A DNA stretch of 64,000 bases from Talinum fruticosum (Eukaryota > Streptophyta > Magnoliopsida > Caryophyllales > Talinaceae). A model generated the notes under the pieces. That model had not been told where the DNA came from, searched no databases, and saw only the letters and a list, made by a program, of their open reading frames with translations. The DNA lies in the NCBI GenBank assembly GCA_021018815.1, contig JAITYX010000152.1, positions 62,001 through 126,000 of the forward strand, in the 5' to 3' direction. The position numbers and the translations under genes were made by a program. Below, piece by piece: positions 9,799 through 61,846 of the stretch. Positions within the stretch are counted from its first letter, which is position 1. Every line of letters starts with the position of its first letter.

Positions 9799-11080
9799 TG
9801 ATGGAGAGTGGGCAGCTTTCTGTTTTGAGCTGTATGACATTCGTGTTAAGAAGCTTTGTATGTTTAGTGTTCAGCCGGAAACGTTTGCTTATCTTATGAC
9901 CAAGGGAAAAACTCAAAGAACAAGCGCATGATGCTAATAGATTCCGGGGATGATGAGTCCAGATTATCAAGTTCTTATGATGTTGTTCATAAATAAGTAT
10001 TTACCAAATTTAGTTGAGAAGATTAGTAAAAGTAGCCACCTAAAATCTCCATGGTCAAGAAAGAAGGTTTATTCTAATCAAGGCCGGAAATGTTGCTATG
10101 TTATGACTCAAGGTACATAAATAAGTTGGTGCTCACTATGGACGGTCCATGAGGATGCCTAGCCGAATGATGAGCTACAAAAGGAGATGATGACTAATGC
10201 ATTCTAGAAGCATCAAGATTCAAAGAGCTTGGAGAAGGGAAATCAAGGCATAGCCACATGTTCCTAATGTTGAAATACTTGGCTAGAAATCATCCTAGCT
10301 TGGCTTGGAGGGAGGGAAAGGAATATTGTTAGTTAGCATTTTGTTTTTGCATTATTTTCAGCTTGAGTTTGTTACACTTTTAGCTTGCAAATCGGTTATG
10401 TAGAATGCCATAGCTGGGCAATATAAAATCAGCTCATGAGCTTCATTGTAATCAACCCTTGATGAATATATGAATTTGAGCTTTGCTCTTGAGATGGATT
10501 TCTCAACCTTTGGAATTCTCATTGCTGTATCCTAGTGTGGCAGCTAGGTGGTGTCCTGTGAGTCCTTCCAATCTCCCGGTGGTGTTGCTGTATCCGGACA
10601 GATTGAAGGCGCCCTCGGTTCTTACTCGGTGGTGTTTTACGTATCCGAGCTAGGACCTTGGTATTATCCCCTCACTTCATCAATTCACATCTCACAATCT
10701 ACCCAGCCATTTCACTCCAAATTTGAACCACAATCCTTCCTGTCCATCTACTTCCATTCCTCCAATTTTCAGCTCCATCCAAGAACATCTCCATCCTCCA
10801 CACCAAAACCAAACAAAGGGTGTCCGTCATGTACAGCCAGCCGGTTACCTCAACTTCAGGCTATCTGTTCAGGGAGTTCCCCTTATCCAAATTCAACGAA
10901 ACTTGGTCACGATCATCATCTACCAGTTACCAACCTTCCTACCAAATTTCAGCCCAGACCAAGCACTTTTGCCCCTCCATTTCTCCAATCTGCCAAGATT
11001 GCGCAAGCAGGCTGCATTACTGCCGGTTGTGCTTCTTGCGGTTTTCTATCCATTTTCTTTGCTTCCGCCACTACACATCA
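9799..11080 (+). mobile_element. Solo LTR nested in an LTR, plus orientation
   Basis: The 1,282-bp LTR starts TGATGGAGAGTGG and ends CCACTACACATCA, with target duplication CAAGC (9794-9798, 11081-11085). It is the youngest layer of this three-level nest and is opposite in orientation to its hosts. A TATA-like ATATAAAA lies near 10421-10428, with the stem-loop block 100 bp downstream. Confidence 0.94.
10526..10660 (+). ncRNA. Triple stem-loop block in LTR leader (clear example)
   Basis: Hairpin 1 pairs CCTAG (10531-10535) with CTAGG (10544-10548). Hairpin 2 pairs 10564-10579 (CCTTCCAATCTCCCGG) with 10594-10609 around a 14-nt loop TGGTGTTGCTGTAT. Hairpin 3 pairs GGTTCT and CTCGG (10617-10629) with CCGAG and AGGACC (10645-10657). 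The stem sequences differ from other LTR copies but remain complementary. Predicted RNA structure in the element leader. Confidence 0.72.
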
Positions 11081-13820: not shown

Positions 13821-15097
13821 TGATGTGTAGTGGCGGAAGCAAAGAAAAAGAGGTGAAAACCGCAGGAAACACAACCGGCCAGAATGCAGCCTGCGTGCGC
13901 TATCTTGGCAGATTGGGGAAATGGAGGGGCAAAGGTTCTTGGATTTAGTTAAAAATTGGTGGGAAGGAAGGTAACTGGTGAATGAAGATCGTGACCAAGT
14001 TTCGTTGAATTTGGAAAAGGGAAACTTCCTGAACAGATGGCCTGAAGTTAATGCAACCGGCTGGCTGTTCAGACAGACACCCTTTGTTTGATTTCGGTGT
14101 GGAGGATGGAGATGTTCTTGGATGGAGCTGGAAATTGGAGGAATGGTAGTAGATGGATTGGAAGGATTGTGGTCAAAATATGGAGTGAAATGGCTGGGTA
14201 GATTGTGAGATATGAGTTGGTGAAATGAGGGGATAAATCCAAGGTCCTAGCTCGGATACGTAAAACACCACCGAGTAAGAACCGAGGGGCGCCTTCAATC
14301 TGTCCGGATACAGCAACACCACCTGGAGATTGGAAGGACTCACAGGACACCACCTAGCTGCCACACTAGGATACAGCAATGAGAATTTAGAAACGAGCAA
14401 TCCAGCTCAAGAGTTAAACTCATATATTTCAGCAAAAAGTGTTTTACAATGGAGCATAGGTGCTGAATATATAATGCTTCATATGAGCATTTACATAACC
14501 GAATCCAAGCTGAAAAATAAAGCAAAACAAAATGATAACTAATTTAGATGCTTTCCTCCTCTCCAAGTTAAGCTTGAAGAATTTCTAGCCAAGTATTGTT
14601 TGATAGGGAACATGTGGCCAAGAGTTGTTGCCCCTTCTCCAAGCTCTCTTCTAACCACCTTCCACTAGTGGTAGTGCCTTCTAGAATGCTCTTTAGCTTG
14701 GTGTTCTTGGTAGCTCCATGTGATACATGACCTTAACCCTTCGGCTCTCCCTTGGACCGACCTATCATGACCTGAAATTATTTATGTTCAAAGCACTTAA
14801 GATAATAATACTTGTAACATTGCTTAATTGTACTTGGCCGGTCTCTTCTAGCTTAACCATGGAAATTTGGTGAGCTTGATTTCTCAACTATCTTCCTTAA
14901 CACCTTGATTTATTTATGAACAAATAATCAATGATCATCCTCCCGGCTCAAATGACATTACGTGCATGAAAAATACAAGCATTCCCAGTTGTTTTGCATG
15001 CACGTTGAGCTGAACATTTTCTGTCTTTTTACCCATGGTTGGCCATTGTCCATCAATGTCACACAGCTCAAAACAGAAGGCTGCCCACTCTCCATCA
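13821..15097 (-). repeat. 5' LTR of the Gag-protease element
   Basis: Uninterrupted, 1,277 bp. The stem-loop block is at 14243-14376 and the TATA-like motif near 14465-14477. One neck base of hairpin 2 differs from the mate LTR (CCTGG here, CCGGG there). It ends CCATCA at 15097, followed by the duplication GAAAA. Confidence 0.94.
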
Positions 15098-16332
15098 GAA
15101 AAAGATGGAAAAACCGCAAAACACACAACCGGGCAGATTAGGACCTGCAGGTGCGGTTCTGGGGAAAAGGGTGAAAAGAGGGGTAAATGTTCTTGGATTT
15201 GGACGAAACTTGGAGGGGAGTGAGGTAACTGATGGAGGAAGGTTGTGGCCAAGTTTCGTGAATTTTGGATAAGGGGAACTACCTGAACAAATAGCCAGAA
15301 GTTGGTGCTGCTGGCTGGACGTACAGGTTGATACCCTTTGTTTGGTTTTGGTGTGGAGGACGGAGGGGTTCTTGGATGGAGCTGAAAATTGGAGGGATGG
15401 AAGTAGACTTGCTGGAAGGATTGTGGTTAAAATTTGGAGTGAAATGGCTGGGTAGATTGTGAGATATGGAATGGCAAAGTCGCTGGATAGTACCTTGACT
15501 CAAGCTCGGATACGTAAACACCACCGAGTGAATCAAGGGGCGCACCTAAGCGATCCGGATACAGAAACACCACCGGGACTTAAGTGACTCAAAGGACACC
15601 ACCGTGAGGCCAAGCACGGATACAGCTTTGAGGATTCAAAAGGTTGAGAAATCCATCTCAAGAGCAAAGCTCAAATTCATATATTCATCAAAAGTGTCTT
15701 TACAATGAAGCATATGAGCTGAATTTATAAGCAACAAAATAACATTTAGCTAAGCTGAAAATTAAATCTAAAAATAATAAAGATGCTTTCCTCCTCTCCA
15801 AGTTAAGCTAGGATGAATTCTAGCCAAGCATTTGGTGAATTGGGAACATGTGGCCATGGTTTGTTTTCCCTTTTGCAAGCTTCTAACAAACCATCTTCCA
15901 CCATGGTGAGTGCTTCTAGAATGCTCCCCTTTAGGCTCCCTTGAGTGCTCTCCTTAGGCGTGTGACCTTATGCTCTTTTGGACCTTTGGACCGGCCAGAA
16001 CATGCAACAAATTATCCCTTGGACCGGCCGAACATGCATCAAATTATTTATGTTCAAATGACACTTCACGGTTTTGACAAGGCTAATCTCATCTTGCTTC
16101 AACGTGGAGAATTTGGCTAGCTTGATTCTTTTGGGCTATCTTACTTAGCTCCTCGGACGAGCTTTTATTTATGAGCATGAATTCACGAAAGACCAAACTC
16201 TTGACATTTTATCCTCCGGGTTCAAAAATAAACAAAGGAAATTCAAGTGTGGCTAGTTGATTTTCATGTGTGCTTGATCTCATTCGATGACCCGCCTTCG
16301 GTCCATAGTCTAGGGCTGTCCACTTTCCATCA

Positions 16333-17552: not shown

Positions 17553-17645
17553 AGCATAGCTCTTGTAAAAACAACTTTGATGAATATATGAACTTTGAGC
17601 TTTGCTCTTTTGAGATGGATTTCTCAACCCTTTGAATTCTCATTG

Positions 17646-17780
17646 CTGTATCCGAGCCTTGGCAAGCTTGGTGGTGTCCTTTGAGTCTTTACAATCCCCG
17701 GTGGTGTTTCTGTATCCGGCCAGATTGCAAAGTGCCCCTTGATTCAGCTTGGTGGTGTTTCTGTATCCAAGCCAGAATCC
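17646..17780 (+). ncRNA. Triple stem-loop block in LTR leader
   Basis: Hairpin 1 has CCGAGC/GCTTGG (one G-U pair). Hairpin 2 has CTTT-CAATC-CCGG paired to CCGG-GATTG-AAAG. Hairpin 3 has GATTC-GCTTGG paired to CCAAGC-GAATC. Loops of hairpins 2 and 3 are TGGTGTTTCTGTAT. Stems differ from the block at 10526 by compensatory changes. Confidence 0.7.
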
Positions 17781-18201
17781 AGGTTCTATCCAGCGACTTC
17801 CATCAACCATATCTCCCAATCCACGAATCGTCTCTTTCCCAAATTTCACACACTTCATCTTACATGAGTTGAGACCATCTCCACCAAATCTCAGCTTAAA
17901 CCAAGAAGAACTCCGCCCTCCACCCTTGAAACAAACAAAGAGTCTCATCCTGGACAGTCAGCATAGAACCCTGACTTTCAGCTCTGTGTTCAAGGCTTTC
18001 CCGACCTCCAAAAATTCCAATATTTTTACACAACCTTCTTGGCCCAGTTAATAACCATCCTGTCAAATTTCAGCTTCAAATTCATCCATTTGCCCCTCCT
18101 TTTACATTTTCTCCCAGAACCGCACCTGCAGGACCTGTTCTGGCCAGCTTGCTTGTTTGCGGTTTTGCTTATCTTTTTGCTTCCGCTCCCACTACACATC
18201 A

Positions 18202-35179: not shown

Positions 35180-36412
35180 CGATGTGTAGTGGCGGAAGCA
35201 AAGAAAAAGATGGAAAAACCGCAAAACACACAACCGGGCAGAATAGGACCTGCAGGTGCGGTTCTGGGGAAAAGGGTGAAAGGAGGGGTAAATGATGGAG
35301 TTTTTGGACGAAATTTGGTGGAAGGTTAGTTAATTGGTTGGGGAAGGTTGTGGTAAAATTTGGGCAGCATCCAAGGTCGGGATCACCTTGATCCAAACGC
35401 AAACAGAAAGCCTCGCTGGGTGGCTGTCCAGAATGAGGTTCTTTGTTTGTTTTTGGTGCTGGGGATGGAGTTCTTCTTGGATTGAGCTGAGATTTGGAGG
35501 GAATGGACTCAACTCATGTAAGATGAAGTGTGTGAAATTTGGGAAAGAGATGATTCGTGGATTGGGAGATATGATTGATGGAAGTCGCTGGATAGAACCC
35601 GGATTCCGGCTTGGATACGAAACACCACCAAGCTGAATCAAGGGGCACTCTTAAACGGTCCGGATACAGAAACACCACCGGGGCTTAAGAGACTCAAAGG
35701 ACACCACCAAGCTTGCCAAGGCCTGGATACAGCATTGAGGATTCAAAGGGTTGAGAAATCCATCTCACAAGAGCAAAGCTCAAATTCATATATTCATCAA
35801 AAAGTGTTTTTACATGAGCTAGGCTTGCTGAATTTATAATGCCTAACATTGGCATTTTACAAAGCTGAAACATAGCTAAAAATTAAAGCAAAATCAAAAC
35901 AAAATTAGCCAAGATTCTTTCCCCTCCTCCAAGTTAAGCTAGGAGAAATTTCAGCCAAGTATTTGATGGTTAGGGAACATGTGGCTATGGTTTGTTTCCC
36001 CTTTGCCAAGCCTCCTTAATTCTTCTAGAATGCTCTTCATGTGGGCTGCTTTGGATGCTCCCCTTAGGCGCCTAGGCATGTTGTAATTGACCTTGGACCG
36101 ACCAGAATCAAATACAAATTATTTATGTGCAAAGACACCTTACTTCACGTTTTGTCATGGCCAAAATGCACCTTGCTCTAACATGGAGGATTTTAGGTTT
36201 GCTAGCTGATTCTTCTTGGCTCTCCTTCTTGACTCTTAGGTAAATAATTATTTATGAACAATCTTAAAAAGAACACACTCTTGACTTCCCATCCTCCGGG
36301 ATCAAAAATGATAATAAGAAATTCAAGTGTCTTTGGCTGATTTCCATGCATGTTTGATCTCTCTTGATAACTTGTCCTCGGTCCATGATCAAGGGCTGTC
36401 CACTTTCCATCA
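35180..36412 (-). repeat. 3' LTR of element 35180-40085
   Basis: It is 1,233 bp. Stem-loop block 35602-35733, TATA-like motif near 35830-35841. Its U5-side patch (GGAGTTTTTGGACG) matches the left-edge element rather than its own 5' LTR, which has GGTCTTGGTTTTGG there. Confidence 0.93.
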
Positions 36413-38851: not shown

Positions 38852-40085
38852 TGATGTGTAGTGGCGGAAGCAAAGAAAAAGATGGAAAAACCGCAAAACA
38901 CACAACCGGGCGAGAATAGGACCTGCAGGTGCGGTTCTGGGGAAAAGGGTGAAAGGAGGGGTAAATGGTCTTGGTTTTGGACGAAATTTGGTGGAGAGGT
39001 AGTTAACTGGTTGGGAAAGGTTATGGTAAAATTTGGGCAGCATCCAAGGTCGGGATCACCTTGATCCAAACGCAAACAGAAAGCCTCGCTGGGTGGCTGT
39101 CCAGAATGAGGTTCTTTGTTTGTTTTTGGTGCTGGGGATGGAGTTCTTCTTGGATTGAGCTGAGATTTGGAGGGAATGGACTCAACTCATGTAAGATGAA
39201 GTGTGTGAAATTTGGGAAAGAGATGATTTGTGGATTGGGAGATATGGTTGATGGAAGTCGCTGGATAGAACCTGGATTCTGGCTTGGATACGAAACACCA
39301 CCAAGCTGAATCAAGGGGCACTCTTAAACGGTCCGGATACAGAAACACCACCGGGGCTTAAGAGACTCAAAGGACACCACCAAGCTTGCCAAGGCCTGGA
39401 TACAGCATTGAGGATTCAAAGGGTTGAGAAATCCATCTCACAAGAGCAAAGCTCAAATTCATATATTCATCAAAAAGTGTTTTTACATGAGCTAGGCTTG
39501 CTGAATTTATAATGCCTAACATTGGCATTTTACAAAGCTGAAACATAGCTAAAAATTAAAGCAAAATCAAAACAAAATTAGCCAAGATTCTTTCCCCTCC
39601 TCCAAGTTAAGCTAGGAGAAATTTCAGCCAAGTATTTGATGGTTAGGGAACATGTGGCTATGGTTTGTTTCCCCTTTGCCAAGCCTCCTTAATTCTTCTA
39701 GAATGCTCTTCATGTGGGCTGCTTTGGATGCTCCCCTTAGGCGCCTAGGCATGTTGTAATTGACCTTGGACCGACCAGAATCAAATACAAATTATTTATG
39801 TGCAAAGACACCTTACTTCACGTTTTGTCATGGCCAAAATGCACCTTGCTCTAACATGGAGGATTTTAGGTTTGCTAGCTGATTCTTCTTGGCTCTCCTT
39901 CTTGACTCTTAGGTAAATAATTATTTATGAACAATCTTAAAAAGAACACACTCTTGACTTCCCATCCTCCGGGATCAAAAATGATAATAAGAAATTCAAG
40001 TGTCTTTGGCTGATTTCCATGCATGTTTGATCTCTCTTGATAACTTGTCCTCGGTCCATGATCAAGGGCTGTCCACTTTCCATCA
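38852..40085 (-). repeat. 5' LTR of element 35180-40085
   Basis: It is 1,234 bp. Stem-loop block 39275-39406, TATA-like motif near 39503-39513. It is largely identical to the 3' LTR but carries a different short patch at the U5 end, evidence of exchange between family members. Confidence 0.94.
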
Positions 40086-44046: not shown

Positions 44047-45740
44047 TGATGGAAATTTCTATCCATACTTAACTTTCAAGAGTCAAGGGGTCTCTCAAGT
44101 TAAAGCATAAAAGGAGTCAAACTTATTTTTACATCAAAAACTCCTATGCTAGTCCAAAAGTGCAAGCCAAGCCAAGGATGGAAGAGATCGTTAAAGGCCT
44201 TGAGAATTGTCATTCAAAGACAATTAGCACATAAATAAATGTTGCCAAACGAGTAAAGCAAGATATGCATCAAAGACGGTCCAAAAATACCTAAAGGGTA
44301 TTTTAGGCACATTTTGTTCATGCTGAATTTTATGGCCGAAAATGTCATGCTTGGTCAAGAGTCAATGGCCGGACCTTCAAGGTTCAAGAAGACATTCTAG
44401 AAGCCTCCTAGAATATGATGTGTTGGCCAAATAGAAATGAGGCTTGGGAAAGGGGAAACCAATGATGGAAAGTGGACTGCCCGAGCATTTTGAGCTAAGA
44501 AATATCCCTCCTAAAGAGTTTTGCATGATTAAGGAAGAACCGGGAATATTTGATATATCCATGGTTTCAAGCCTTTTGATGATGGATCCCGGAGGTTGAT
44601 TAGATAAGGAGATTAAAACCCTTATGTTCTTGTTTATAAATAAATGTTCATCGATGGAGACATGAACGAGAGTTAGTAAAGTTACAAGCTAGCCACCAAA
44701 AGTCCTTTCATGTTTGAGCAAGGATGAACCTGGCCGGGAGTTATTCCAAGTGCTACTATTTTTGCCATGTCCATAAATAATGACCAAGGGACGGTCCAAG
44801 GGCTAAGATGAATGTCCATGCACTTAAGGGAAGCATCCAAAGACATATTTCAAGGAGCATTCTAGAAGCACTAACCATAATGGGAGTTGGTTAGAAGGAT
44901 GCTTGGCAAAGGGGAAATTCAACCACATCCACATGTTCCCAAATGCCCAAATACTTGGCTAGGATTTATCCAAGCTTAACTTGGAGAGGAGGAAAGCATC
45001 TAATTAGTTAGCATTTTGTTTTGCTTTAATTTTCAGCTTTGTTAATTTCAATTTCCAGCATGGTTAGTTGTATTGGCGGCTCTATATATTCAGCATGCAC
45101 ACTCCTTGTAAAAGCACTTTTTGATGAATATACAAACCTTGAGTGTTATACTCTTTTCGGGATGGATTTCTCGAGCCTCTAAATCCTCAAAGCTGTATCC
45201 TAGGTTGGCATCTAGGTGGTGTCCTTTGAGTCTCCCAAACCCGGTGGTGTTTACGTATCCGGACCGTTTGAGAGCGCCCCTGATTCGGCTTGGTGGTGTT
45301 TACGTATCCAAGCCAGAATCCAGGTTCTATCCAGCGACTTCCATCAACCATATCTCCCAATCCACGAATCATCTCTTTCCTAAATTTCACACACTTCATC
45401 TTACATGAGTTGAGTCCATTCCCTCCAAATCTCAGCTCAATCCAAGAAGAACTCCATCCCCAGCACCAAAAACAAACAAAGAACCTCATTCGGATAGCCA
45501 CCCAGCGAGGCTTTCTGTTTGCATTTGGCTCAAGGTGATCCCGACCTTGGATGCTGCCCAAATTTTACCACAACCTTCTCCAACCAGTTAATTAACCTTC
45601 CACCAAATTTCGTCCAAAAACTCCATCATTTACCCCTCCTTTCACCTTTTTCCCCAGAACCGCACCTGCAGGTCCTGTTACGCCTGATTGTGTGTTTTGC
45701 GGTTTTCCATCTTTTTCTTTGCTTCCGCCACTATACATCA
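44047..45740 (+). mobile_element. Chimeric solo LTR: 416 bp of one LTR joined to a complete second LTR
   Basis: Flanked by AATAA (44042-44046, 45741-45745). At 1,694 bp it is too long for one LTR. Positions 44047-44462 are a U3 start of distinct sequence, with CACATAAATAAATG and GGGTATTTTAGGCACATT. A second LTR tip, TGATGGAAAGTGGACTGCC, begins at 44463 and runs 1,278 bp to the single end at 45740. The flank ACCAA before 44463 has no partner. The simplest history is a nested insertion followed by recombination between the two like-oriented LTRs. Confidence 0.9.
45193..45320 (+). ncRNA. Triple stem-loop block in LTR leader
   Basis: Hairpin 1 CCTAG/CTAGG. Hairpin 2 CTC-CAAAC-CCGG paired to CCGG-GTTTG-GAG. 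Hairpin 3 is a perfect 12-bp stem (GATTCGGCTTGG side, then CCAAGCC and GAATC with one bulged A). Loops are TGGTGTTTACGTAT. Confidence 0.72.
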
Positions 45741-45967: not shown

Positions 45968-47225
45968 TGATGTGTAGTGGGAGGCGGAAGCAAAAGGAAG
46001 CAAAACCGCAAGAAAACCAAGCTGGCCAGAATAGGACCTGCAGGTGCGGTTACTGGGGAAAAGGGTGAAAGGAGGGGTAAATGGTCTTGGTTTTGGACGA
46101 AATTTGGTGGAGAGGTAGTTAACTGGTTGGGAAAGGTTGTGGTAAAATTTGGGCAGCATCCAAGGTCGGGATCACCTTGAGCCAAACGCAAACAGAAAGC
46201 CTCACTGGGTGGCTGTCCAGAATGAGGTTCTTTGTTTGTTTTTGGTGTCTGGGGATGGAGTTCTTCTTGGATTGAGCTGAGATTTGGAGGGAATGGACTC
46301 AACTCATCTAAGATGAAGTTTTTGAAATTTGGGAAAGAGATGATTCGTGGATTGGGAGATATGGTTGATGGAAGTCGCTGGATAGAACCTGGATTCTGGC
46401 TTGGATACGTAAACACCACCAAGCTGAATCAAGGGGCACTCTTAAACGGTCCGGATACAGAAACACCACCGGGGCTTAAGAGACTCAAAGGACACCACCA
46501 AGCTTGCCAAGGCTCGGATACAGCAATGAGGATTCAAAGGGTTGAGAAATCCATCTCACAAGAGCAAAGCTCAAATTCATATATTCATCAAAAGTGTCTT
46601 TACAATGGAGCATAGGTGCTGAATATATAATGCCTAACAATGGCATTTTACAAGCTGAAACTAAGCTGGAAAATAAAGTAAAAATGATAATAAAACTACT
46701 AAGATTCTTTCCCTTCCTCCAAGTTAAGCTAGAGTGAATTCTAGCCAAGTATTGCAAAATTGGGAACATGTGGTTGTGGCTTGTTTTCCCCTTTCCCAAG
46801 CTTCTCAATTAGTTGCTTCTAGACTTCCTTGTAATGCTCTTCCTTTGTTGCTCTCTTTCCGGCCTAGGTAGCATCATATGACAATATGGACCGACCATAT
46901 TTAAGCACTAAATTATTTATGAACATGAGCTGGATAAGGACACGGCTGGACAAGGCCACGACTGGACAAGGCTGAATCCACTTGCTTTAACATGGAGGAA
47001 TTTAGGTGGCTAGCTTTGGCTAGCTTTGATTCTTCTTCTAGGCTCTTAGGTAAATAATTATTTATGAACATAAGGCCATAAAAAATCACTTCGCCGGTTG
47101 CTCATCCTCCGGGATAAAAAATGAATAAGGGAAATTCAAGTGTTTTCGGTTCATTGCCATGCTTGTTTGATCTCTCTTGATGATTAATCTTCGGTCCATG
47201 ACCAAGGGCTGTCCACTTTCCATCA
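45968..47225 (-). repeat. 3' LTR of element 45968-50922
   Basis: It is 1,258 bp and starts with the TGATGTGTAGTGGGAGGCGG variant (extra bases after GTGG). Stem-loop block 46391-46525. Small differences from its mate include GACACGGCTGGAC here versus GACACGTGCTGGAC there, a CG-associated indel. Confidence 0.94.
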
Positions 47226-47237: not shown

Positions 47238-47253
47238 AGAAAAAAATTTGTCC

Positions 47254-49464
47254 TCAAATTTGTGGGGATACCCTTTTCCAAGTTTGAAAAAATTTGGGTA
47301 TGTTGAAGCTTGTGGAAAGTTGAGAAAGGACATGCTCTTTTGTGCTTTTGAAGGCCTCCAGGACCTTTTCTTTCATGCCCGGCCAGAAGTGGTGTTCTTC
47401 TAGCAAGCTCACGACGTTGTAAGAGCAAACTTGGCCAGCAAAGGCTTCATGATAAAGTATGCAAAACCGAGTGAGATCATTACCCTTTGGAGATAAAGGA
47501 TCCGGTTCCACATACTCCTTTAAGTCCTCTAGAGCTTCCATGTCCGGCCACAAGGGATTCTCCCTTAACATAGACAAAATCAAGCTTTCACGTTCAGCCC
47601 ATCCTTCATTGCACACTCTAGGCAATTCTTGTGTACCACAATTGGAACTCAAAAACCGGTTGTCTACAATAAGGAAGTCATTTTGCTCAAAGAGACTAAG
47701 CACTTTCCATGGACTTTCTAGGCCACTAACCATCAACTCTTCAATTTGTTTTTGGGCCTTTTGAACACTTGTGGAGCTTATGTGACATGCGGGTTTGCTG
47801 GACAAAAGGGTGTTTGTGTTTGGGTGGTGTATGGTTTTTTGTGGAGGAAGGCCGAATGGGTTTGTATTTGGAGGAGTCCGGGCAGATTTGTTTTGGGGAG
47901 TTTCGGTGTGAAATTGTGGGTTTTGGGGTAGTGGAATGAGCTCTTGAATGGGGCTAAGCTCAAGTTGCTTTCTCTTGGACAGATTCGCAAGGGCGGTAAG
48001 AGCATTAAAACACCACACAAGTTTGGTTAATACAAGCCAAAACAGATTGGCTTCCATCTTGTCAATTCTAGCTTCATGGACAGATTTGGTGTGGCCCGGA
48101 ATCAAGGCCTCATGGCTGGAAAAATGACATTTTAGGAGGTTAAGAATTTCCTCCTTGGGTCTCAATAACACCATTTGCTTCTTAGGACAAGTAGCAAGGC
48201 AGCCATGGTGTATAAATTGGAAGAACAAGTCACTAGCTCCGCCATTAGCAAACAATTTTGTTCCCTTGAACAAATTCTCCTCATGCACTAGTGGTTCTCC
48301 AAAATCATACTCAACAACAAACAAGCACATTAGCTTATAAAAATGGGAAACACAATTTTCCAATGGATTAAAAGAGATATACCTCTTTGCCAACTTATGG
48401 ACTTCTTGTTTGTACCTCTCGGTTTGCCAATGGGTTGGTAAAGAGAATAACCATGAAAGTTCAACTCCATAAATACTCAATTGTTGTTGCTCTTGGCAAC
48501 TCATCAAACACAATAAGATCCTTTGATCTTCAAAGTAGTAACTCCAACATGTAAGTGTGAATAAGATAGTCAAAATTCTTTTTGGGCGCTTCACACAATC
48601 CGGGTATAGTCTTTGGAGATTTCTTTCAACAATAAACACCCAAGTAAATTGTTCAAAAACAATTTTACAATCTTCCAAATGTAAAGGAATAGAACACCTC
48701 ATAGAAATTGCACCATTTAATTTTTGAGGTTCTCCTTGTTCTATCACTTTAAATTTCATCTCAAGCTCTTCCTCATGCTCAACTTCATGATCTTCATTGT
48801 GCAACTTGGGCAGTCCACTCACGGCCAGAATGGGAACAGAAATGGGGAATGGATTTTTGGGAGGAAAATGGTCAAGTGAGGTTAAGGGTTCTTTGGTGAT
48901 GGAAGGGGTATTTTGTGGGGGCTCAAAGGGCTGGACAGTAGGTGGTTGGTGGCTATTTGGAAGGCTTGGTTTGGTGCTTTGGGGTGGAGAAAGTGGGGGC
49001 TGGTTGGTTGGCTTTGGTGGGGAAATGTGGGGGCTCTTTTTGTGGAGTGCTGGGGTATTTTGTGGAGGTGGAGAGGGCTGGGCATTCGGTGTTTTGGAAA
49101 GAGAAGAAGGGGCTGAAAGTTTAGGGGAAAGAGAAGACAAACCTTCCTTGTTATGGTGTGTGCTCTCGGTGGGAAGGGAGTTGTATTTGAATGGACAAAA
49201 TTTCTTTAGCAACTTCCCTCTTAGCTTGCTCCATGTATGCACTCTTTCTTTGCCTCTTGTCTTTCTTCTCACTTTGTAGGTTGTCCACCAAATGAGGGCA
49301 TGACTCCTCAATTTTGACACAACAATCTCAACCTTCTCATTCTCCATTAAGCTCAAGTTTGCAAAGGCTTCATCAACCTTGACAAACCAACTAACAAATT
49401 GATTTTGTTGGCCATAGAATTTAGGCACAAGTAGGCTAACCAACTCAAAGTTAGAAGATGTCAT
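47254..49464 (-). CDS. Short Gag + X polyprotein, 736 codons, best intact copy
   Basis: The start ATG at 49464 lies 185 bp inside the primer site. Residues 10-95 are Gag-like, with a WW pair at 59-60. About 110-240 is a proline-rich linker (PSPPPQNTP, ISPPKPTNQPP). From about 255 comes the X region (MRCSIPLHLEDCKIVFEQFTWVFIV, NLQRLYPDCVKRPK). A hydrophobic run LFWLVLTKLVWCFNALTAL at about 472-494 could cross a membrane or form a buried helix. X is shared with the protease-X frame at 52306-54186 (MRCSFPLHLEECKIVVEQFTWVF). I do not recognise X as any polymerase, integrase, protease or known envelope domain. The length equality of internal regions with 35180-40085 suggests a mobile lineage. Probable role: particle or RNA-binding protein acting with a partner's enzymes. 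Confidence 0.87.
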   Translation of the reverse strand: MTSSNFELVSLLVPKFYGQQNQFVSWFVKVDEAFANLSLMENEKVEIVVSKLRSHALIWWTTYKVRRKTRGKERVHTWSKLRGKLLKKFCPFKYNSLPTESTHHNKEGLSSLSPKLSAPSSLSKTPNAQPSPPPQNTPALHKKSPHISPPKPTNQPPLSPPQSTKPSLPNSHQPPTVQPFEPPQNTPSITKEPLTSLDHFPPKNPFPISVPILAVSGLPKLHNEDHEVEHEEELEMKFKVIEQGEPQKLNGAISMRCSIPLHLEDCKIVFEQFTWVFIVERNLQRLYPDCVKRPKRILTILFTLTCWSYYFEDQRILLCLMSCQEQQQLSIYGVELSWLFSLPTHWQTERYKQEVHKLAKRYISFNPLENCVSHFYKLMCLFVVEYDFGEPLVHEENLFKGTKLFANGGASDLFFQFIHHGCLATCPKKQMVLLRPKEEILNLLKCHFSSHEALIPGHTKSVHEARIDKMEANLFWLVLTKLVWCFNALTALANLSKRKQLELSPIQELIPLPQNPQFHTETPQNKSARTPPNTNPFGLPPQKTIHHPNTNTLLSSKPACHISSTSVQKAQKQIEELMVSGLESPWKVLSLFEQNDFLIVDNRFLSSNCGTQELPRVCNEGWAERESLILSMLRENPLWPDMEALEDLKEYVEPDPLSPKGNDLTRFCILYHEAFAGQVCSYNVVSLLEEHHFWPGMKEKVLEAFKSTKEHVLSQLSTSFNIPKFFQTWKRVSPQI

Positions 49465-49648
49465 TTCAGCTCTCCAAAATCCAAATGTGAAGGGTACGGT
49501 GGTGGAGAAAAAAATGGACAGAAAAATATTTTGTGGTTTCTTTTTTTTTTTTTTTGTGGATGAACGGTTTGGGATTTTTGTGGAGCTGGCTGTTTTTGTG
49601 TTTTTGGTTTATGGGGAAATGGATACAATCACCCAAGGTTCAGAACTT

Positions 49649-49660
49649 GCTCTGATACCA
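49649..49660 (-). promoter_or_regulatory. Primer-binding site, initiator tRNA-Met
   Basis: TGGTATCAGAGC on the minus strand, four bases from the 5' LTR at 49665. Confidence 0.9.
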
Positions 49661-49664
49661 AAAA

Positions 49665-50922
49665 TGATGTGTAGTGGGAGGCGGAAGCAAAAGGAAGCAA
49701 AACCGCAAGAAAACCAAGCTGGCCAGAATAGGACCTGCAGGTGCGGTTCTGGGGAAAAGGGTGAAAGGAGGGGTAAATGGTCTTGGTTTTGGACGAAATT
49801 TGGTGGAGAGGTAGTTAACTGGTTGGGAAAGGTTATGGTAAAATTTGGGCAGCATCCAAGGTCGGGATCACCTTGAGCCAAACGCAAACAGAAAGCCTCA
49901 CTGGGTGGCTGTCCAGAATGAGGTTCTTTGTTTGTTTTTGGTGCTGGGGATGGAGTTCTTCTTGGATTGAGCTGAGATTTGGAGGGAATGGACTCAACGC
50001 ATGTAAGATGAAGTGTGTGAAATTTGGGAGAGAGATGATTCGTGGATTGGGAGATATGGTTGATGGAAGTCGCTGGATAGAACCTGGATTCTGGCTTGGA
50101 TACAGAAACACCACCAAGCTGAATCAAGGGGCACTCTTAAACGGTCCGGATACAGAAACACCACCGGGGCTTAAGAGACTCAAAGGACACCACCAAGCTT
50201 GCCAAGGCTCGGATACAGCAATGAGGATTCAAAGGGTTGAGAAATCCATCTCACAAGAGCAAAGCTCAAATTCATATATTCATCAAAAGTGTCTTTACAA
50301 TGGAGCATAGGTGCTGAATATATAATGCCTAACAATGGCATTTTACAAGCTGAAACTAAGCTGGAAAATAAAGTAAAAATGATAATAAAACTACTAAGAT
50401 TCTTTCCCCTCCTCCAAGTTAAGCTAGAGTGAATTCTAGCCAAGTATTGCAAAATTGGGAACATGTGGTTGTGGCTTGTTTTCCCCTTTCCCAAGCTTCT
50501 CAATTAGATGCTTCTAGACTTCCTTGTAATGCTCTTCCTTTGTTGCTCTCTTTCCGGCCTAGGTAGCATCATATGACAATATGGACCGACCATATTTAAG
50601 CACTAAATTATTTATGAACATGAGCTGGATAAGGACACGTGCTGGACAAGGCCACGTGCTGGATAAGGCTGAATCCACTTGCTTTAACATGGAGGAATTT
50701 AGGTGGCTAGCTTTGGCTAGCTTTGATTCTTCTTCTAGGCTCTTAGGTAAATAATTATTTATGAACATAAGGCCATAAAAAATCACTTCGCCGGTTGCTC
50801 ATCCTCCGGGATAAAAAATGAATAAGGGAAATTCAAGTGTTTTCGGTTCATTGCCATGCTTGTTTGATCTCTCTTGATCATTAATCTTCGGTCCATGGCC
50901 AAGGGCTGTCCACTTTCCATCA
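49665..50922 (-). repeat. 5' LTR of element 45968-50922
   Basis: It is 1,258 bp, equal in length to its mate. Stem-loop block 50087-50220, TATA-like motif near 50316-50326. It is followed by GAGGG and then the resumed outer LTR. Confidence 0.95.
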
Positions 50923-50927
50923 GAGGG

Positions 50928-52121
50928 GTAAATGATCTTGGATTTGGACGAAACTTGGAGGGGAGTGAGGTAACTGATGGAGGAAGGTTGTGGCCAAGTT
51001 TCGTGAATTTTGGATAAGGGGCACTACCTGAACAGAGAGCCAGAAGTTGATGCTGCTGGCTGGATGTACAGATTGATACCCTTTGTTTGGTTTTGATGTG
51101 GAGGACGGAGAGGTTCTTGGATGGGGCTGAAATTTGGAGGAATGGAAGTAGATGGACTGGAAGGATTGTGGTTCAAATTTGGCGAAAAATGGCTGAGGTA
51201 GATTGGGAGATATGGAATTGGCAAAGTCAGGTGGATAGTACCATGATCCAAGCTCGGATACGAAAACACCACCGAGTAAGAATCGAGGGGCGCTCTCAAA
51301 CGGTCCGGATACAGAAACACCACCGGGAGTTTGGGAGACTCACAGGACACCACCTAGATGCCACACCTAGGATACAGCTTTGAGGATTCTAGAGGCTCGA
51401 GAAATCCATCTCGAAAAGAGTACAACACTCAAGTTCGTATATTCATCAAAAGTTGTTTTTACAATGAAGCATATGATGCTGAATTTATAATGCTTCATAC
51501 GAGCATTTACATAACGAATTTAAGCTGAAAAGCATGAAAATTAAATCAAATAAAAATGCTAACTAATTAGATGCTTTCCTCCTCTCCAAGTTAAGCTTGG
51601 ATGAATTCTAGCCAAGCATTTGGTGAATTGGGAACATGTGGCCATGGTTTGTTTTCCCTTTTGCAAGCTTCTAACAAACCATCTTCCACCATGGTGAGTG
51701 CTTCTAGAATGCTCCCCTTTAGGCTCCCTTGAGTGCTCTCCTTAGGCGTGTGACCTTATGCTCTTTTGGACCTTTGGACCGGCCAGAACATGCAGCAAAT
51801 TATCCCTTGGACCGGCCAGAACATGCATCAAATTATTTATGTTCAAATGACACTTCACGGTTTTGACAAGGCTAATCTCATCTTGCTTCAACGTGGAGAA
51901 TTTGGCTAGCTTGATTCTTTTGGGCTATCTTACTTAGCTCCTCGGATGAGCTTTTATTTATGAGCATGAATTCACGAAAGACCAAACTCTTGACATTTTA
52001 TCCTCCGGGTTCAAAAATAAACAAAGGAAATTCAAGTGTGGCTAGTTGATTTTCATGTGTGCTTGATCTCATTCGATGACTTGCCTTCGGTCCATAGTCT
52101 AGGGCTGTCCACTTTCCATCA
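50928..52121 (-). repeat. Outer element 3' LTR, main part (continues from 45861-45967)
   Basis: Together with 45861-45967 it makes about 1,301 bp. Stem-loop block 51246-51378 (CCTAG/CTAGG, GTTTG/CAAAC and CTCGG/CCGAG types). The middle differs from its mate LTR: here GCTTCATACGAGCATTTACATAACG, split as a patch near 51486-51515. The mate has an unrelated AAGCAACAAAATAACATT at that place, so one LTR was converted. Confidence 0.92.
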
Positions 52122-54228: not shown

Positions 54229-55485
54229 GATGGAAAGTGGACAGCCCTAGACTATGGACCGAAGGCAGGTCATCGAATGAGATCAAGCACACATGAAAAT
54301 CAACTAGCCACACTTGAATTTCCTTTGTTTATTTTTGAACCCGGAGGATAAAATGTCAAGAGTTTGGTCTTTCGTGAATTCATGCTCATAAATAAAAGCT
54401 CGTCCGAGGAGCTAAGTAAAATAGCCCAAAAGAATCAAGCTAGCCAAATTCTCCACGTTGAAGCAAGATGAGATTAGCCTTGTCAAAACCGTGAAGTGTC
54501 ATTTGAACATAAATAATTTGATGCATGTTCTGGCCGGTCCAAGGGATAATTTGCTGCATGTTCTGGCCGGTCCAAAGGTCCAAAAGAGCATAAGTTCACA
54601 CGCCTAAGGAGAGCACTCAAGGGAGCCTAAAGGGGAGCATTCTAGAAGCACTCACCATGGTGGAAGATGGTTTGTTAGAAGCTTGCAAAAGGGGAAAACA
54701 AACCATGGCCACATGTTCCCAATTCACCAAATGCTTGGCTAGAATTCATCCTAGCTTAACTTGGAGAGGAGGAAAGCATCTTTATTATTTTTAGATTTAA
54801 TTTTCAGCTTAGCTAAATGTTATTTTGTTGCTTATAAATTCAGCTCATATGCTTCATTGTAAAGACACTTTTGATGAATATATGAATTTGAGCTTTGCTC
54901 TTGAGATGGATTTCTCAACCTTTTGAATCCTCAAAGCTGTATCCGTGCTTGGCCTCACGGTGGTGTCCTTTGAGTCACTTAAGTCCCGGTGGTGTTTCTG
55001 TATCCGGATCGCTTAGGTGCGCCCCTTGATTCACTCGGTGGTGTTTCGTATCCGAGCTTGAGTCAAGGTACTATCCAGCGACTTTGCCATTCCATATCTC
55101 ACAATCTACCCAGCCATTTCACTCCAAATTTTAACCACAATCCTTCCAGCAAGTCTACTTCCATCCCTCCAATTTTCAGCTCCATCCAAGAACCCCTCCG
55201 TCCTCCACACCAAAACCAAACAAAGGGTATCAACCTGTACGTCCAGCCAGCAGCACCAACTTCTGGCTATTTGTTCAGGTAGTTCCCCTTATCCAAAATT
55301 CACGAAACTTGGCCACAACCTTCCTCCATCAGTTACCTCACTCCCTCCAAGTTTCGTCCAAATCCAAGAACATTTACCCCTCTTTTCACCCTTTTCCCCA
55401 GAACCGCACCTGCAGGTCCTAATCTGCCCGGTTGTGTGTTTTGCGGTTTTTCCATCTTTTTCTTTGCTTCCGCCACTACACATCA
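54229..55485 (+). mobile_element. Solo LTR inside the protease-X frame, plus orientation
   Basis: It is about 1,257 bp with target duplication TCTTT (54224-54228, 55486-55490). The first base of the expected TGATGG tip is missing or shared with the duplication. TATA-like CTTATAAATT at 54831-54840. It restores the host reading frame exactly when removed with one duplication. Confidence 0.92.
54938..55066 (+). ncRNA. Triple stem-loop block in LTR leader
   Basis: Hairpin 1 CCGTG/CACGG. Hairpin 2 CACTTAAG-CCGG paired to CCGG-CTTAGGTG (one G-U). Hairpin 3 TTGATTCA-CTCGG paired to CCGAG-TGAGTCAA (one G-U). All three stems differ in sequence from those at 45193 yet pair equally well. Confidence 0.72.
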
Positions 55486-55653: not shown

Positions 55654-56934
55654 TGATGGACATTTCCAAAGGCTACAACATACTTGTTCATGATCTCCTT
55701 ACATGCCATTAAGCCAAGAGCCATGAGTTCATGTCAAAGCTACAAAAGGAGCTCAAACCGAAAGGAGATCATATTTTAGCACCTAATCTGGTTCAACTTT
55801 TGCTTGATGAACTAGAGCTTGGTTTATGGTGAAGAATTATATTTTATGTCTTTTGTTATATAAATAATTATTGTTCAAGAGTTGGAGCAAGATAAATCCA
55901 CAAGAGAAGGTCCAAAGCGCCAAGGGAACTCAAACCGTGCACTAAGCGCACAAGCTGGCCGGTTATCACCAAGGACCAAAAGGTGGATGTCTTATGCCTT
56001 AGCCGAATGGGTCATGTGTGGACAGCAACAAGGAGGATTCTAGAAGCATTTCCAAGCATCATCCCTAGTGGAAGAATCTATGTGTTGGACCTATGACAAG
56101 CTTTCTTGCACAAGGGGTAGGAAATACTTGGCTAGGATTAACTTTCATATTAGCCACATGTTCCCAAATTGGCTTGGACAAGGGGCTAACATATCTTAGG
56201 CCATTGATCTTGTAATCTTTCTTTTAGGCCTTAGATTATGTTTTAGTTTTGATTAATTTTCAGCATGTTTTATTTCCTTATAAATAGCCTAGCATTCAGC
56301 CATGTAAAAGTTAGACTTGATGAATATATGAACTTTGCGCTTTGCTCTTTTGAGATGGATTTCTCAACCCCTTGAATTCTCATTGCTGTATCCGAGCCTT
56401 GGCAAGTTTGGTGGTGTCCTTACAATCCCCGGTGGTGTTTCCGTATCCGGATAGATTGCAAGGTGCCCCTCGGTTCAACTTGGTGGTGTTTACGTATCTA
56501 GGCCAGAACCCAGGAACTATCCAGCGACTTTATCATCCCATATCTCCCAATCCACAAATCCTTTCTTCCCCAAATTTCACCCACACCATCCTACACGGGT
56601 TGAGTCCAGTACCACCAAATTTCAGCTCAATCCAAGAAGTATCCCGTCCTCGGCACCAAAAACAAACAAAGGACCTCATCCTGGACAGCCGCCCAGCGTG
56701 ACTTTCTGTTTGGCTTTGGTTCAAGGTGATCCCGACCTTGGATGCTTCCCATATTTTTACCAGCCCTTCCTAACATCCCAAATAACCTTCCCTCCAATTT
56801 TTAGCCAAAACCAAGAACATTTGACCCTCCTTTCACCCTTTTCCCTAGACCCGCACTCTGCAGACCCTATTCTGTCCGGTTGCATTTTCTTGGGTTTTTC
56901 CTTCTTCTTTTGCTTCCGCTCCCACTACACATCA
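55654..56934 (+). mobile_element. Solo LTR nested 11 bp inside an LTR end, plus orientation
   Basis: It is 1,281 bp with target duplication GTAGT (55649-55653, 56935-56939). Its U3 begins TGATGGACATTTCCAAAGG and is unlike the other LTRs over about 600 bp, whereas the stem-loop and U5 parts are clearly the same family. TATA-like CCTTATAAATAGCC at 56277-56290. Confidence 0.93.
56386..56510 (+). ncRNA. Triple stem-loop block with compensatory changes
   Basis: Hairpin 2 has CCTT-CAATC paired to GATTG-AAGG, where 17646 has CTTT/AAAG. Hairpin 3 has outer arms GGTTC/GAACC where 17646 has GATTC/GAATC. Each is a two-sided change that keeps the pair. The hairpin 3 neck is weaker (ACTTGG / CTAGG). Confidence 0.72.
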
Positions 56935-58194
56935 GTAGTGGCAGAAGCAAAGGAAAAGATGGAAAAACCGCAAAACACACAACCGGGCAGAATAGGACCT
57001 GCAGGTGCGGTTCTGGGAAAAAGGTGAAAGGAGGGGTAAATGATCTTGGATTTGGACGAAACTTGGAGGTGAGTGAGGTAACTGATGGAGGAAGGTTGTG
57101 GCCAAGTTTCGTGAATTTTGGATAAGGGGCACTACCTGAAAAGATAGCCAGAAGTTGATACTCGCTGGCTGGATGTACAGATTGATACCCTTTGTTTGGT
57201 TTTGATGTGGACGACGGAGGGGTTCTTGGATGGGGCTGAAATTTGAAGGAATGGAAGTAGATGGACTAGAAGGATTGTGGTTAAAATTTGGCGAAAAATG
57301 GCTGAGGCAATTGGGAGATATGGAATGGCAAAGTCGCTGGATAGTACCTTGACCCAAGCTCGGATACGAAACACCACCGAGTGAATCAAGGGCGCTCTCA
57401 AACGATCCGGATACAGAAACACCACCGGGGTTTGGGAGACTCAAAGGACACCACCTAGATGCCAACCTAGGATACAGCTTTGAGGATTTAGAGGCTCGAG
57501 AAATCCATCCCGAAAAAGAGTATAACACTCAAGGTTTGTATATTCATCAAAAAGTGTTTTTACAATGAAGCATATGAGCTGAATTTATAAGCAACAAAAT
57601 AACATTTAGCTAAGCTGAAAATTAAATCTAAAAATAATAAAGATGCTTTCCTCCTCTCCAAGTTAAGCTAGGATGAATTCTAGCCAAGCATTTGGTGAAT
57701 TAGGAACATGTGGCCATGGTTTGTTTTCCCCTTTTGCAAGCTTCTAACAAACCATCTTCCACCATGGTGAGTGCTTCTAGAATGCTCCCCTTTAGGCTCC
57801 CTTGAGTGCTCTCCTTAGGCGTGTGACCTTATACTCTTTTGGACCTTTGGACCGGCCAGAACATGCAGCAAATTATCCCTTGGACCAGCCGGAACATGCA
57901 TCAAATTATTTATGTTCAAATGACACTTCACGGTTTTGACAAGGCTAATCTCATCTTGCTTCAACGTGGAGAATTTGGCTAGCTTGATTCTTTTGGGCTA
58001 TCTTACTTAGCTCCTCGGATGAGCTTTTATTTATGAGCATGAAATCATGAAAGAAAAAACTCTTGACATTTTATCCTCCGGGTTCAAAAATAAACAAAGG
58101 AAATTCAAGTGTGGCTAGTTGATTTTCATGTGTGCTTGATCTCATTCGATGACTTGCCTTCGGTCCATAGTCTAGGGCTGTCCACTTTCCATCA

Positions 58195-59291: not shown

Positions 59292-60542
59292 GATGGAAAG
59301 TGGACAGCCCTACATTTTGAGCTGGAAGATATTCATCCTAAGGAAGCTAGCATATCCGGAAATATCCCAAAATTACTTGAATTTGTTTTAATTATTTTTG
59401 ATCCGGGAGGATGCAAAGCCAAGGGTGTGTTATTTTATGACTTTATGTTCATAAATAAAAGCTCGTCCAACGAGCCAAGAAAGATAGCAAGAAGAATCAA
59501 AGCTAGCCATCAAAATCCTCCATATTAGCGCAAGGTGAAGTTCGGCCAAGATAAACCGTGAAGTGTTAAGCCTTTTGCACATAAATAACTTGGTGCATAT
59601 TTTAGTCGGTCCAAAGGTCCAAATGCAAGATGATTAGGCGCCTAAAGTGATGCACCAAAGGGGAGGAAAGAAGGCCTTCTAGAAGCCTCTTGGAATATGT
59701 TGTGTTGGCCAAATGGAAATGAAGCTTGCATAAGGGGAAAAGGCCTCACAACCACATGTTCCCAAGTCTCAAAATGCTTGGCCAAAATTCAACCTCACTA
59801 ACTTGGAGAGGAGGAAAGCATCTAATTAGTTAGCATTTTGTTTTGCTTTAATTTTCAGCATGGTTAGTTGTAATGGTAGGTCTATATATTCAGCACCTAT
59901 GCTCTATTGTAAACAACTTTGATGAATATATGAACTTTGAGCTTTGCTCTTTTGAGATGGATTTCTCAACCCCTTGAATTCTCATTGCTGTATCCGAGCC
60001 TTGGCAAGCTTGGTGGTGTCCTTTGAGTCTTTACAATCCCCGGTGGTGTTTCGTATCCGGCCAGATTGCAAAGTGCCCCTTGATTCAGCTTGGTGGTGTT
60101 TCCGTATCCAAGCCAGAATCCAGGTTCTATCCAGCGACTTCCATCAACCATATCTCCCAATCCACGAATCATCTCTTTCCCAAATTTCACACACTTCATC
60201 TTACATGAGTTGAGACCATCTCCACCAAATCTCAGCTTAAACCAAGAAGAACTCCGCCCTCCACCCTTGAAACAAACAAAGAGACTCATCTTGGACAGTC
60301 AGCATAGAACCCTGACTTTCAGCTCTGTGTTCAAGGCTTTCCCGACCTCCAAAAATTCCAATATTTTTACACAACCTTCTTGGCCCAGTTAATAACCATC
60401 CTGTCAAATTTCAGCTTCAAATTCATCCATTTGCCCCTCCTTTCACATTTTCTCCCAGAACCGCACCTGCAGGACCTGTTCTGGCCAGCTTGCTTGTTTG
60501 CGGTTTTGCTTATCTTTTTGCTTCCGCTCCCACTACACATCA
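59292..60542 (+). mobile_element. Solo LTR in the satellite sub-repeat tract, plus orientation
   Basis: It is 1,251 bp with target duplication AACTC (59287-59291, 60543-60547). The first T of TGATGG is missing. TATA-like TCTATATATT at 59881-59890, stem-loop block 59988-60120. It is closely related to the solo LTR 16935-18201 from the TATA box to the U5 end. Confidence 0.94.
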
Positions 60543-60570: not shown

Positions 60571-61846
60571 TGATGGAAAGTGGCCTGCCCAACATTTTGA
60601 GCTAAGAAATATCCCTCCTAAAGGGTTTTGCATGATTAAGGGAGAACCGGGAATATTTGATATATCCATGATTTCAAGCCTTTTGATGGATCCCGAAGGT
60701 TGATTAGATAAGGAGATCAAAATCCTTATGTTCTTGTTTATAAATAAATGTTCATCAATGGAGACATGAACGAGAAGTTAGTTACAAGTTATTCACCAAA
60801 AAGTCCTTTCATGTTTGAGCAAGGATGAACCTGGCCGAGAGTTATTTCAAGTGCTACTATTTTTGCCATGTCCATAAATAATGACCAAGGGACGGTCCAA
60901 GGGCTAAGATGAATGTCCATGCACATAAGGGAAGCATCCAAAGACATATTTCAAGGAGCATTCTAGAACCACTAACTATAGTGGAGGAAGGTGGTTACTA
61001 GATGCTTGCCCAAGGGGAAATCAAACAATGGCCACATGTTCCCAATTCCCAAATACTTGGCTAGAATTAATCCAAGCTTAACTTGGAGAGGAGGAAAGCA
61101 TCTAATTAGTTAGCATTTTTGTTTTGCTTTATTTTTCATATTTTTCAGCTTGAATTCGGTTATGTAAATGCTCATATGAAGCATTATATATTCAGCTAGC
61201 ATAGCTCTTGTAAAGGGAACCCTTGATGAATATATGAATTTGAGCTTTGCTCTTGAGATGGATTTCTCAACCTTTGGAACTCTCATTGCTGTATCCTAGT
61301 GTGGCAGCTAGGTGGTGTCCTTTGAGTCCTTCCAATCTCCCGGTGGTGTTTTCTGTATCCGGACAGATTGAAGGTGCCCCTCGGTTCTTACTCGGTGGTG
61401 TTTTCACGTATCCGAGCTAGGACCTTGGAATTATCCCCTCACTTCATCAATTCATATCTCACAATCTACCCAGCCATTTCACTCCAAATTTTAACCACAT
61501 TCCTTCCAGTCCATCTACTACCATTCCTCCAATTTTCAGCTCCATCCAAGAACATCTCCATCCTCCACACCGAAATCAAACAGAGGGTGTCTGTCTGTAC
61601 AGCCAGCCGGGTACCTCAACTTCAGGCTATCTGTTCAGGGAGTTCCCCTTATCCAAATTCAACGAAACTTGGTCTCGACCTTCATTTACCAGTTACCATC
61701 CTTCCCACCAAATTTCAGCCAAGACCAAGCACTTTTGCCCCTCCATTTCCTCAATCTGCCAAGGTTGCGCAAACAGGCTGCATTCTGCCCGGTTGTGCTT
61801 CTTGCGATTTTCTATCCATTTTCTTTGCTTCCGCCACTACACATCA
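60571..61846 (+). mobile_element. Solo LTR in the satellite sub-repeat tract, plus orientation
   Basis: It is 1,276 bp with target duplication CTCTC (60566-60570, 61847-61851). The U3 start resembles 44463-44600, while the part from the TATA box to the U5 end resembles 9799-11080, so it is a mosaic. TATA-like GCATTATATA at 61181-61190. Confidence 0.95.
61289..61424 (+). ncRNA. Triple stem-loop block in LTR leader
   Basis: Same stem sequences as 10526-10660: CCTAG/CTAGG; CCTTCCAATCTCCCGG against CCGG and AGATTGAAGG; GGTTCT-CTCGG against CCGAG-AGGACC. Loop lengths vary by one or two bases (TGGTGTTTTCTGTAT) while the stems do not. Confidence 0.7.

Follow-up and report, generated by a model that had tools for sequence, protein, structure and literature searches.

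Packaging signals of retroviruses are consecutive hairpins in the 5' leader. BARE2, a Copia element, and the LTR elements TR-GAG and noaCRR, which lack pol, are non-autonomous. To our knowledge, how the Gag of plant LTR retrotransposons chooses its own RNA, and how helpers mobilise pol-less elements, is largely unknown. Structured 5' leaders as such are already known, in retroviruses and in Ty1, where, according to the accessible part of the account, the leader RNA structure of the TIPIRT domain, with a pseudoknot and hairpins whose loop motifs are complementary, is needed for helper-driven transposition of mini-elements (PMC5454406). BARE2, a parasite of BARE1, is said to have conserved dimerization and packaging signals, and the accessible part of that account holds no covariation evidence (PMC3735527). 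CRM-clade chromoviruses, as portrayed in the accessible text of Neumann et al. (2011, PMC3059260), share TGATG...CATCA ends, a 5-bp target duplication and a tRNA-Met primer site with the elements described below; their LTRs measure 299-1225 bp and, in group A, a reading frame enters the 3' LTR with a CR motif. An A-rich stretch of the 5' UTR is mentioned there, hairpins are not, and the words "secondary structure" occur nowhere in the main text. Plant structured-RNA candidates generally show modest covariation, as far as the accessible part of one catalogue goes (PMC12218528), and in its main text no word begins with "transposon" or "LTR". Neither hairpins in CRM leaders nor the UGGUG/GUAU module reported here were found described in the open-access papers searched; the preliminary description of this locus likewise states that no described equivalent is known.

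The locus lies in a window of 64,000 nucleotides of Talinum fruticosum DNA (62001-126000 of contig C152), the whole stretch that was analysed, and consists of three hairpins in the leader of an LTR. The best explanation is a structured RNA that belongs to the 5' leader of Ty3/Gypsy elements of the CRM (centromeric) type. That the RNA structure itself is real and under selection we regard as close to certain, because tree-aware counts of compensatory change, a bias of G.U over A.C and a divergent family, 20 copies of which lay outside the model, all speak for it; the earlier reading of two-sided changes as the mark of selected RNA structure is upheld on the same three grounds. A scan for GGTGGTGT found the three hairpins in 17/17 leader copies of the window, on both strands (Table 1). 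All stems named at the outset are present where they had been placed, but the outer stem of hairpin 1 had been overlooked, and the true span of the block is correspondingly that given in the table. A TATA box about 100 bp ahead of the block had been ascribed to every LTR: the string TATA[AT]A[AT] stands 90-109 bases ahead in 12 of 17 family representatives, whereas the other five, all of divergent families, have no such string (for one of them, L036, the available flank is only 98 bases).

Table 1. Positions of the block, its parts and copies, and one carrier element within the window (position 1 is the first letter of the window)
Feature	Position	Strand	Description
Block, whole	45186-45324	+	three hairpins in LTR leader
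TATA box of LTR	45083..45090	+	ATATATTCAG matched from 45083; 103 bases ahead of block
Hairpin 1	45186..45230	+	outer stem CTCAAAG/CTTTGAG; internal strands CTGTAT and TGGTGTC; inner stem CCTAG/CTAGG; apical loop GTTGGCAT
Hairpin 2	45232..45274	+	stem CTC..CAAAC/GTTTG.GAG; closing CCGG/CCGG; loop TGGTGTTTACGTAT
Linker between hairpins 2 and 3, CGCC	45275..45278	+	GCC in 107/107 distinct rows (alignment columns 129-141)
Hairpin 3	45279..45324	+	outer stem around CCTGATTC/GAATCCAGG; inner GGCTTGG/CCAAGCC; loop TGGTGTTTACGTAT
LTR element	45968-50922	-	LTRs 1258 bp, start TGATGG, end ACATCA; CCCTC flanks both sides
Primer binding site after 5' LTR of element 45968-50922	49649..49660	-	TGGTATCAGAGC
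784-aa frame of element 45968-50922	47254..49608	-	weak gag match, 23.9 bits (cut-off 24.1); RT-like stretch short only
Block copy	1693..1848	-	
Block copy	9378..9537	-	
Block copy	10518..10675	+	
Block copy	14225..14383	-	
Block copy, structure reference	15479..15632	-	38/38 pairs
Block copy	17639..17797	+	
Block copy	35584..35739	-	
Block copy	39257..39412	-	
Block copy	46374..46530	-	3' LTR of element 45968-50922
Block copy	50069..50225	-	5' LTR of element 45968-50922
Block copy	51227..51384	-	
Block copy	54930..55082	+	
Block copy	56379..56528	+	shortened between hairpins 1 and 2; 26/38 pairs
Block copy	57333..57484	-	
Block copy	59981..60138	+	
Block copy	61282..61442	+	

Each leader carries one two-strand module in three copies, once circularly permuted. 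At one helix end of every hairpin, GUAU (UAU in some families) enters and UGGUG leaves, and the closing pair is nearly always C-G. Hairpins 2 and 3 present both strands as an apical loop, linked by 4-7 variable bases. Hairpin 1 presents them as an internal loop with the reverse connection, and there the other side of the helix is capped by a loop in which GGC is usually found. The hairpin 2 and 3 loops had been called nearly constant, which is correct for UGGUG on the 5' side and GUAU on the 3' side but not for length, which varies from 13 to 16 nt. Among 107 distinct rows (numbers of 19 clusters at 80% in parentheses), UGGUG starts the 3' strand of hairpin 1 in 99 (15), the loop of hairpin 2 in 99 (17) and that of hairpin 3 in 101 (17); GUAU closes the loops of hairpins 2 and 3 in 103 (17) and 101 (16), and UAU closes the 5' strand of hairpin 1 in 102 (15), with the full GUAU there in 72/107. 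Identity among the 17 family representatives is highest, at 0.70-0.72, in the three 20-nt bins that bear UGGUG; it is 0.31-0.64 in other bins and 0.06 in the first.

A divergent family (L079-L098) shows the same architecture in 20/20 retrieved copies, with 85.1% of cells paired in a structure-fitted alignment against at most 45.2% when the partners are slid; these copies stood outside both the model and the main tests, in which their relatives L020:4315 and L034:3909 were included. Here GUAU is replaced by UUAU in hairpin 3 (20/20), hairpin 2 likewise has U for that G in 19/20 (UUAU, or UUAC in one copy), and hairpin 1 has CUUAU in 20/20. The concerted change of G to U belongs to hairpins 2 and 3, because hairpin 1 goes without that G elsewhere too. 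L034:3909 and L020:4315, which group with this family, have UUAU for GUAU in hairpins 2, 3 and 1. Given no structure, RNAalifold recovered hairpins 1 and 3 of the divergent family and hairpin 2 in part, together with one extra helix.

A covariance model trained on the 17 window rows found 85 matches in 30 sources and then, as sampling of the same 620-Mb genome (264 contigs) grew, 122 in 67 sequences, of which 121 cover the full model length. The sample is not random for the genome: 20 ten-kb stretches were picked around matches to the 45193 leader, 20 short ones by a single loop pattern, and a further 40 because they resembled one of two divergent leaders (20 of 40 relatives listed for one, 20 of 41 for the other), with L008-L017 partly overlapping the ten-kb stretches and identical rows counted once. 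The loop pattern, GGTGGTGTNNNNNGTATCC, occurs 795 times genome-wide, as compared with 6 for the reversed control, and the whole three-hairpin model was matched by 20/20 retrieved pattern sites, picked mostly for loop diversity from 100 listed of the 795, and likewise by 20/20 retrieved relatives of one divergent leader, taken from 40 listed. The larger set used below comprises the 122 rows minus two partial ones (L009:1-120 and L034:1405-1527), that is 120 rows, 107 of them distinct; the smaller comprises 85 rows, 69 distinct, with both partial rows kept. Exact-pattern scans of two collections that contain no plants returned two matches in viral contigs, the flanks of both lacking the block, and five in genome contigs, all in bacteria-titled records; on the pattern and the two viral flanks, the scans gave no sign of a block homologue. 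At gathering scores, the Rfam covariance models, including hammerhead (retrozyme) and 5S (Cassandra), gave no match in the window.

In the structure-fitted alignment of 69 distinct rows, 91.2% of cells are paired, compared with 25.7-55.7% when the partners are slid, and 33/38 pairs show two-sided change; the 38-pair structure of the reference copy, applied to the 17 window rows, pairs 91.9% of cells against 15.3-52.5%. The strongest evidence comes from a tree-aware null, in which the same substitutions are placed randomly among stem columns on the same tree, itself built from unpaired columns. Two-sided, pairing-preserving branch events number 73.2 for the 107 distinct rows, where 8.1 are expected and the maximum of 400 null runs is 17, and 9/38 pairs are singly significant after Bonferroni correction with the null pooled over pairs. 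The structure-fitted smaller set gives 61 events against 7 expected. The excess is also present in structure-blind MAFFT alignments, with 37.6 events versus 4.1 (null maximum 10 of 300) for the 69 distinct rows, 35 versus 4.1 (maximum 11) for 22 rows at most 90% alike, and 17 versus 2 (maximum 6) for the window rows alone. On the 17 window rows RNAalifold, with no structure supplied, recovered the inner stem of hairpin 1 and hairpins 2 and 3, with 10/35 pairs compensated; it did not predict the outer stem of hairpin 1, pairing GGUG of that hairpin with the GCC linker instead. The GGC of the hairpin 1 loop, present in 101/107 rows, and the GCC of the linker, which could be partners in a pseudoknot, are both near invariant and so offer no covariation.

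Other measures are less favourable. Shuffling of the 17 window rows left two of five measures unexceptional, the number of pairs with two-sided change being as high in 98/500 shuffles and that of further pair types in 490/500, and 45186-45338 has an unremarkable folding energy (z -1.11, 24/200 shuffles as low). An all-against-all G-test with APC detected 1/38 pairs in the 69 distinct rows and later 2/38 at E<0.05, and its two-set version 6/38; in the whole alignment, structure pairs make up 8 of the 20 top-scoring column pairs. We read the weak G-test as low power from few deep lineages, the 107 distinct rows falling into 19 clusters at 80%. As it stands, its result counts against a strict claim of "significant covarying pairs", and the covariance-model check proposed with the preliminary description has a divided outcome: the tree-aware null is exceeded ninefold (73 vs 8), but the conventional test yields 2/38 pairs.

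Which strand is selected can be judged from one-sided changes. Among such departures from Watson-Crick pairing, G.U outnumbers A.C by about 61:30 (p 7.6e-4 for a difference from equality). Internal branches of one reconstruction give 23:3 (p 1.1e-4), terminal branches 38:26 (internal versus terminal, Fisher p 0.006); transitions in unpaired columns, uncorrected for base composition, stand at roughly 121:110 in the same comparison. Since G.U is tolerable in the sense RNA and A.C is not, with the reverse true of the antisense, the bias indicates selection on the sense RNA and argues against DNA palindromes as the selected object. We read the difference between branches as lineages that spread having kept the sense-RNA fold and dead copies decaying.

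The carriers match the CRM clade in the LTR ends TGATG/CATCA, the CCCTC duplication and the primer site TGGTATCAGAGC, which we take to be complementary to tRNA-Met. That site follows CATCA closely at four places in the window. In a second window element GTTGC stands at either flank, provided that the final base of the 3' LTR is counted as altered, and the third element compared showed no clear ends; outside the window, LTRs of L026, L034 and L036 end in ACATCA. The 1258-bp LTR is slightly longer than the published CRM range, and the repeat of L078 is at least 551 bp. One non-autonomous element of the window has a frame (36264-38795, minus strand) that crosses the start of the 3' LTR at 36412 by about 150 bp, which may correspond to the arrangement described for group A. 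The named relatives of the window gag among the 120 matches listed are plant proteins.

The elements had been described as polymerase-less, which holds for those of the window, where only short RT-like stretches were found (around 11862-13734, gag and protease similarity was found and RT was not), but not for the family at large: the pol-bearing relatives L026, L034, L036 and L078 carry the block. L026:377 combines the block, the LTR end and an exact primer site with gag, zinc knuckle, RT and RNase H (Pfam) and an integrase zinc domain below the cut-off. L036:99 and L034:3909, both interrupted, the latter by an insertion, have the block, the LTR end, an altered primer site and, by similarity, gag, RT and RNase H. 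L078 has matches to gag, RT, RNase H and integrase domains enclosed by two block-bearing LTRs that are 97.8% alike, and its primer site is altered. All four are helper candidates, with broken frames as they stand. At the other extreme, the L021/L037 family, retrieved often because the sample favours it, keeps the block with protease similarity, a short weak RT-like stretch and no Gag capsid match. Its open frames (L037:5292-7421, minus strand, 710 aa; L021:6966-8708, plus strand, 581 aa) have no Pfam match; they resemble the protease part, and briefly the RT, of a pol-bearing element, and the family is non-autonomous. L026:6646 was considered as an autonomous element with a window-type leader and left uncounted; there the LTR end joins gag sequence and no primer site is present.

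Judging by the position of the TATA box alone, transcription would start about 30 bases past it, with the block then some 60-80 nt from the 5' end of the genomic RNA. All three modules might be read by one protein, for which the nucleocapsid part of Gag, where a zinc knuckle is present, is the likeliest candidate. The RNA would thereby be marked for packaging, and non-autonomous relatives would keep the module so that the Gag of a helper accepts their RNA. Like retroviral packaging signals, as generally known, the block is a series of leader hairpins, with a zinc-knuckle Gag in a pol-bearing relative; it differs in using one module thrice, once inside-out. TR-GAG and noaCRR are comparable as LTR elements without pol, whereas the L021/L037 family is without a Gag capsid match too. 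We give an even chance to the proposal that the block acts as a packaging signal recognised by Gag, for which the precedents are retroviral (general knowledge) and, in the accessible part of PMC5454406, that of Ty1. The loop motifs reported in Ty1 are complementary; here hairpins 2 and 3 resemble each other in their loops, which are not complementary. BARE2 belongs to another element family.

The original suggestion, that a signal for packaging, dimerisation or translation gives polymerase-less elements access to the proteins of a partner, appears plausible in so far as the block is common to pol-bearing and pol-less elements and is kept in the L021/L037 family, where a Gag capsid was not detected, but general dimerisation by kissing loops would not be favoured by the loop sequences. 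Kissing as a general function was rejected, the palindrome TACGTA being present in 2/107 hairpin 2 loops and at least 27/107 hairpin 3 loops (25 commonest loop forms); at the 45193 copy, where both loops contain it, kissing is possible. Also rejected was a G-quadruplex as a conserved feature, since in several families the GG at the closure of the hairpin 2 loop is replaced by AG or UG, and CU or CA compensates on the opposite side. A more specific and more tentative version of the packaging proposal is that GUAU-[C...G]-UGGUG might serve as a recognition code of CRM-type Gag, common to autonomous and non-autonomous elements, with stems drifting freely, and that a lineage could switch the code (GUAU to UUAU) across its copies along with its Gag.

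Because the elements examined also encode some frame, translation competes with packaging as the function. In this main rival, unlikely in our estimation, the hairpins would control how ribosomes reach the downstream frame, uORFs ending just before hairpin 1 in a shunt- or reinitiation-like arrangement. Such an arrangement, with a uORF ending before the basal stem, is described for shunting in pararetroviral leaders in the accessible part of PMC5902531 and recurs in many copies here: in 59/92 distinct leaders a frame opened by an upstream AUG (within 75 bases) has its stop ending at -15 to +3 of the block. In the examples shown, the stop is mostly three bases ahead of the block, and the AUG is at -24 or -51, in one frame. 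Over 150 nt counted from the block start, AUG is absent in 75/92. The 59 leaders are, however, related and so non-independent, and their number is a raw count; such a stop is missing in 33/92, and a uORF runs into the block in 56/92. In the same account, stem-arm sequences of the shunt are neither conserved nor essential, and shunting would not call for the conserved loop module, fixed in three copies over several hairpins, that distinguishes the present leaders. At 45162-45182 of the window, a short uORF has its stop three bases before hairpin 1. A site for a host RNA-binding protein, serving nuclear export, stability or a centromeric role of the RNA, would also account for a near-fixed motif in three copies and would suit the clustering of pattern matches along contigs (C1, 7.8-9.9 Mb, among the first 100 places listed); the change of the motif in one family would come more easily with a partner encoded by the element, and we think this explanation improbable. 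Slightly less probable still is a reverse-transcription signal in R/U5, for strand transfer, primer-tRNA annealing or cDNA folding. The block does sit in the LTR between the TATA box and the primer binding site, but its distance to the latter differs between elements, from about 200 nt (L036) to about 600 (L026), whereas that to the TATA box, where one was found, is nearly fixed.

No selected RNA function at all would be needed if template switching had made or repaired the inverted repeats (quasipalindrome correction), if they were DNA cruciforms or palindromic sites for proteins, or if the signal were an artefact of phylogeny. That would fit the few deep lineages, the weak conventional covariation test and the ordinary folding energy. 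This we hold to be very improbable: 62/72 runs of two-sided change involve a single pair rather than tracts, the preference for G.U over A.C is meaningful only in sense RNA, the tree-aware null is exceeded, and loops are conserved while stems change. Finally, some leaders are crossed by long open frames, as they would be if the conserved stretch were protein-coding, but loops of 13, 14, 15 and 16 nt occur in both hairpins and shift the frame between copies, and block lengths run from 150 to 161, with one exception of 134, which leaves this explanation a negligible probability.

If the block is a packaging signal, its 160 nt, with a near-fixed repeated module and many natural stem variants, make the RNA choice of Gag directly testable, and the covariance model could be used for finding pairs of helpers and parasites. 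Compensatory change of such extent would stand out among plant structured RNAs as presented in the accessible part of PMC12218528.

Several further observations concern the surroundings of the block. Directly upstream, at 45140-45185 of the window and in equivalent places, there are one or two extra small hairpins, GAGC..GCTC or GAGT..ACTC and a stem around TGGATT (GAGA/TCTC, GAGC/GCTC, CGAGA/TCTCG), whose two sides likewise vary from family to family. In a search that allowed one mismatch and several loop lengths, 36/55 distinct leaders had a 4-bp stem of full complementarity beside a TGGAT-like loop. In one leader copy (L034:5047-5199, minus strand), the LTR end CACTACACATCA is joined straight to the middle of hairpin 1. 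Tandem repeats of ~1.53 kb occupy about 2500-44000 and 58000-63900 of the window, with LTR elements in and around them, and on contig C1 all but one of the loop-pattern matches among the first 100 places listed fall in the cluster noted above, as expected of a centromere-seeking family.
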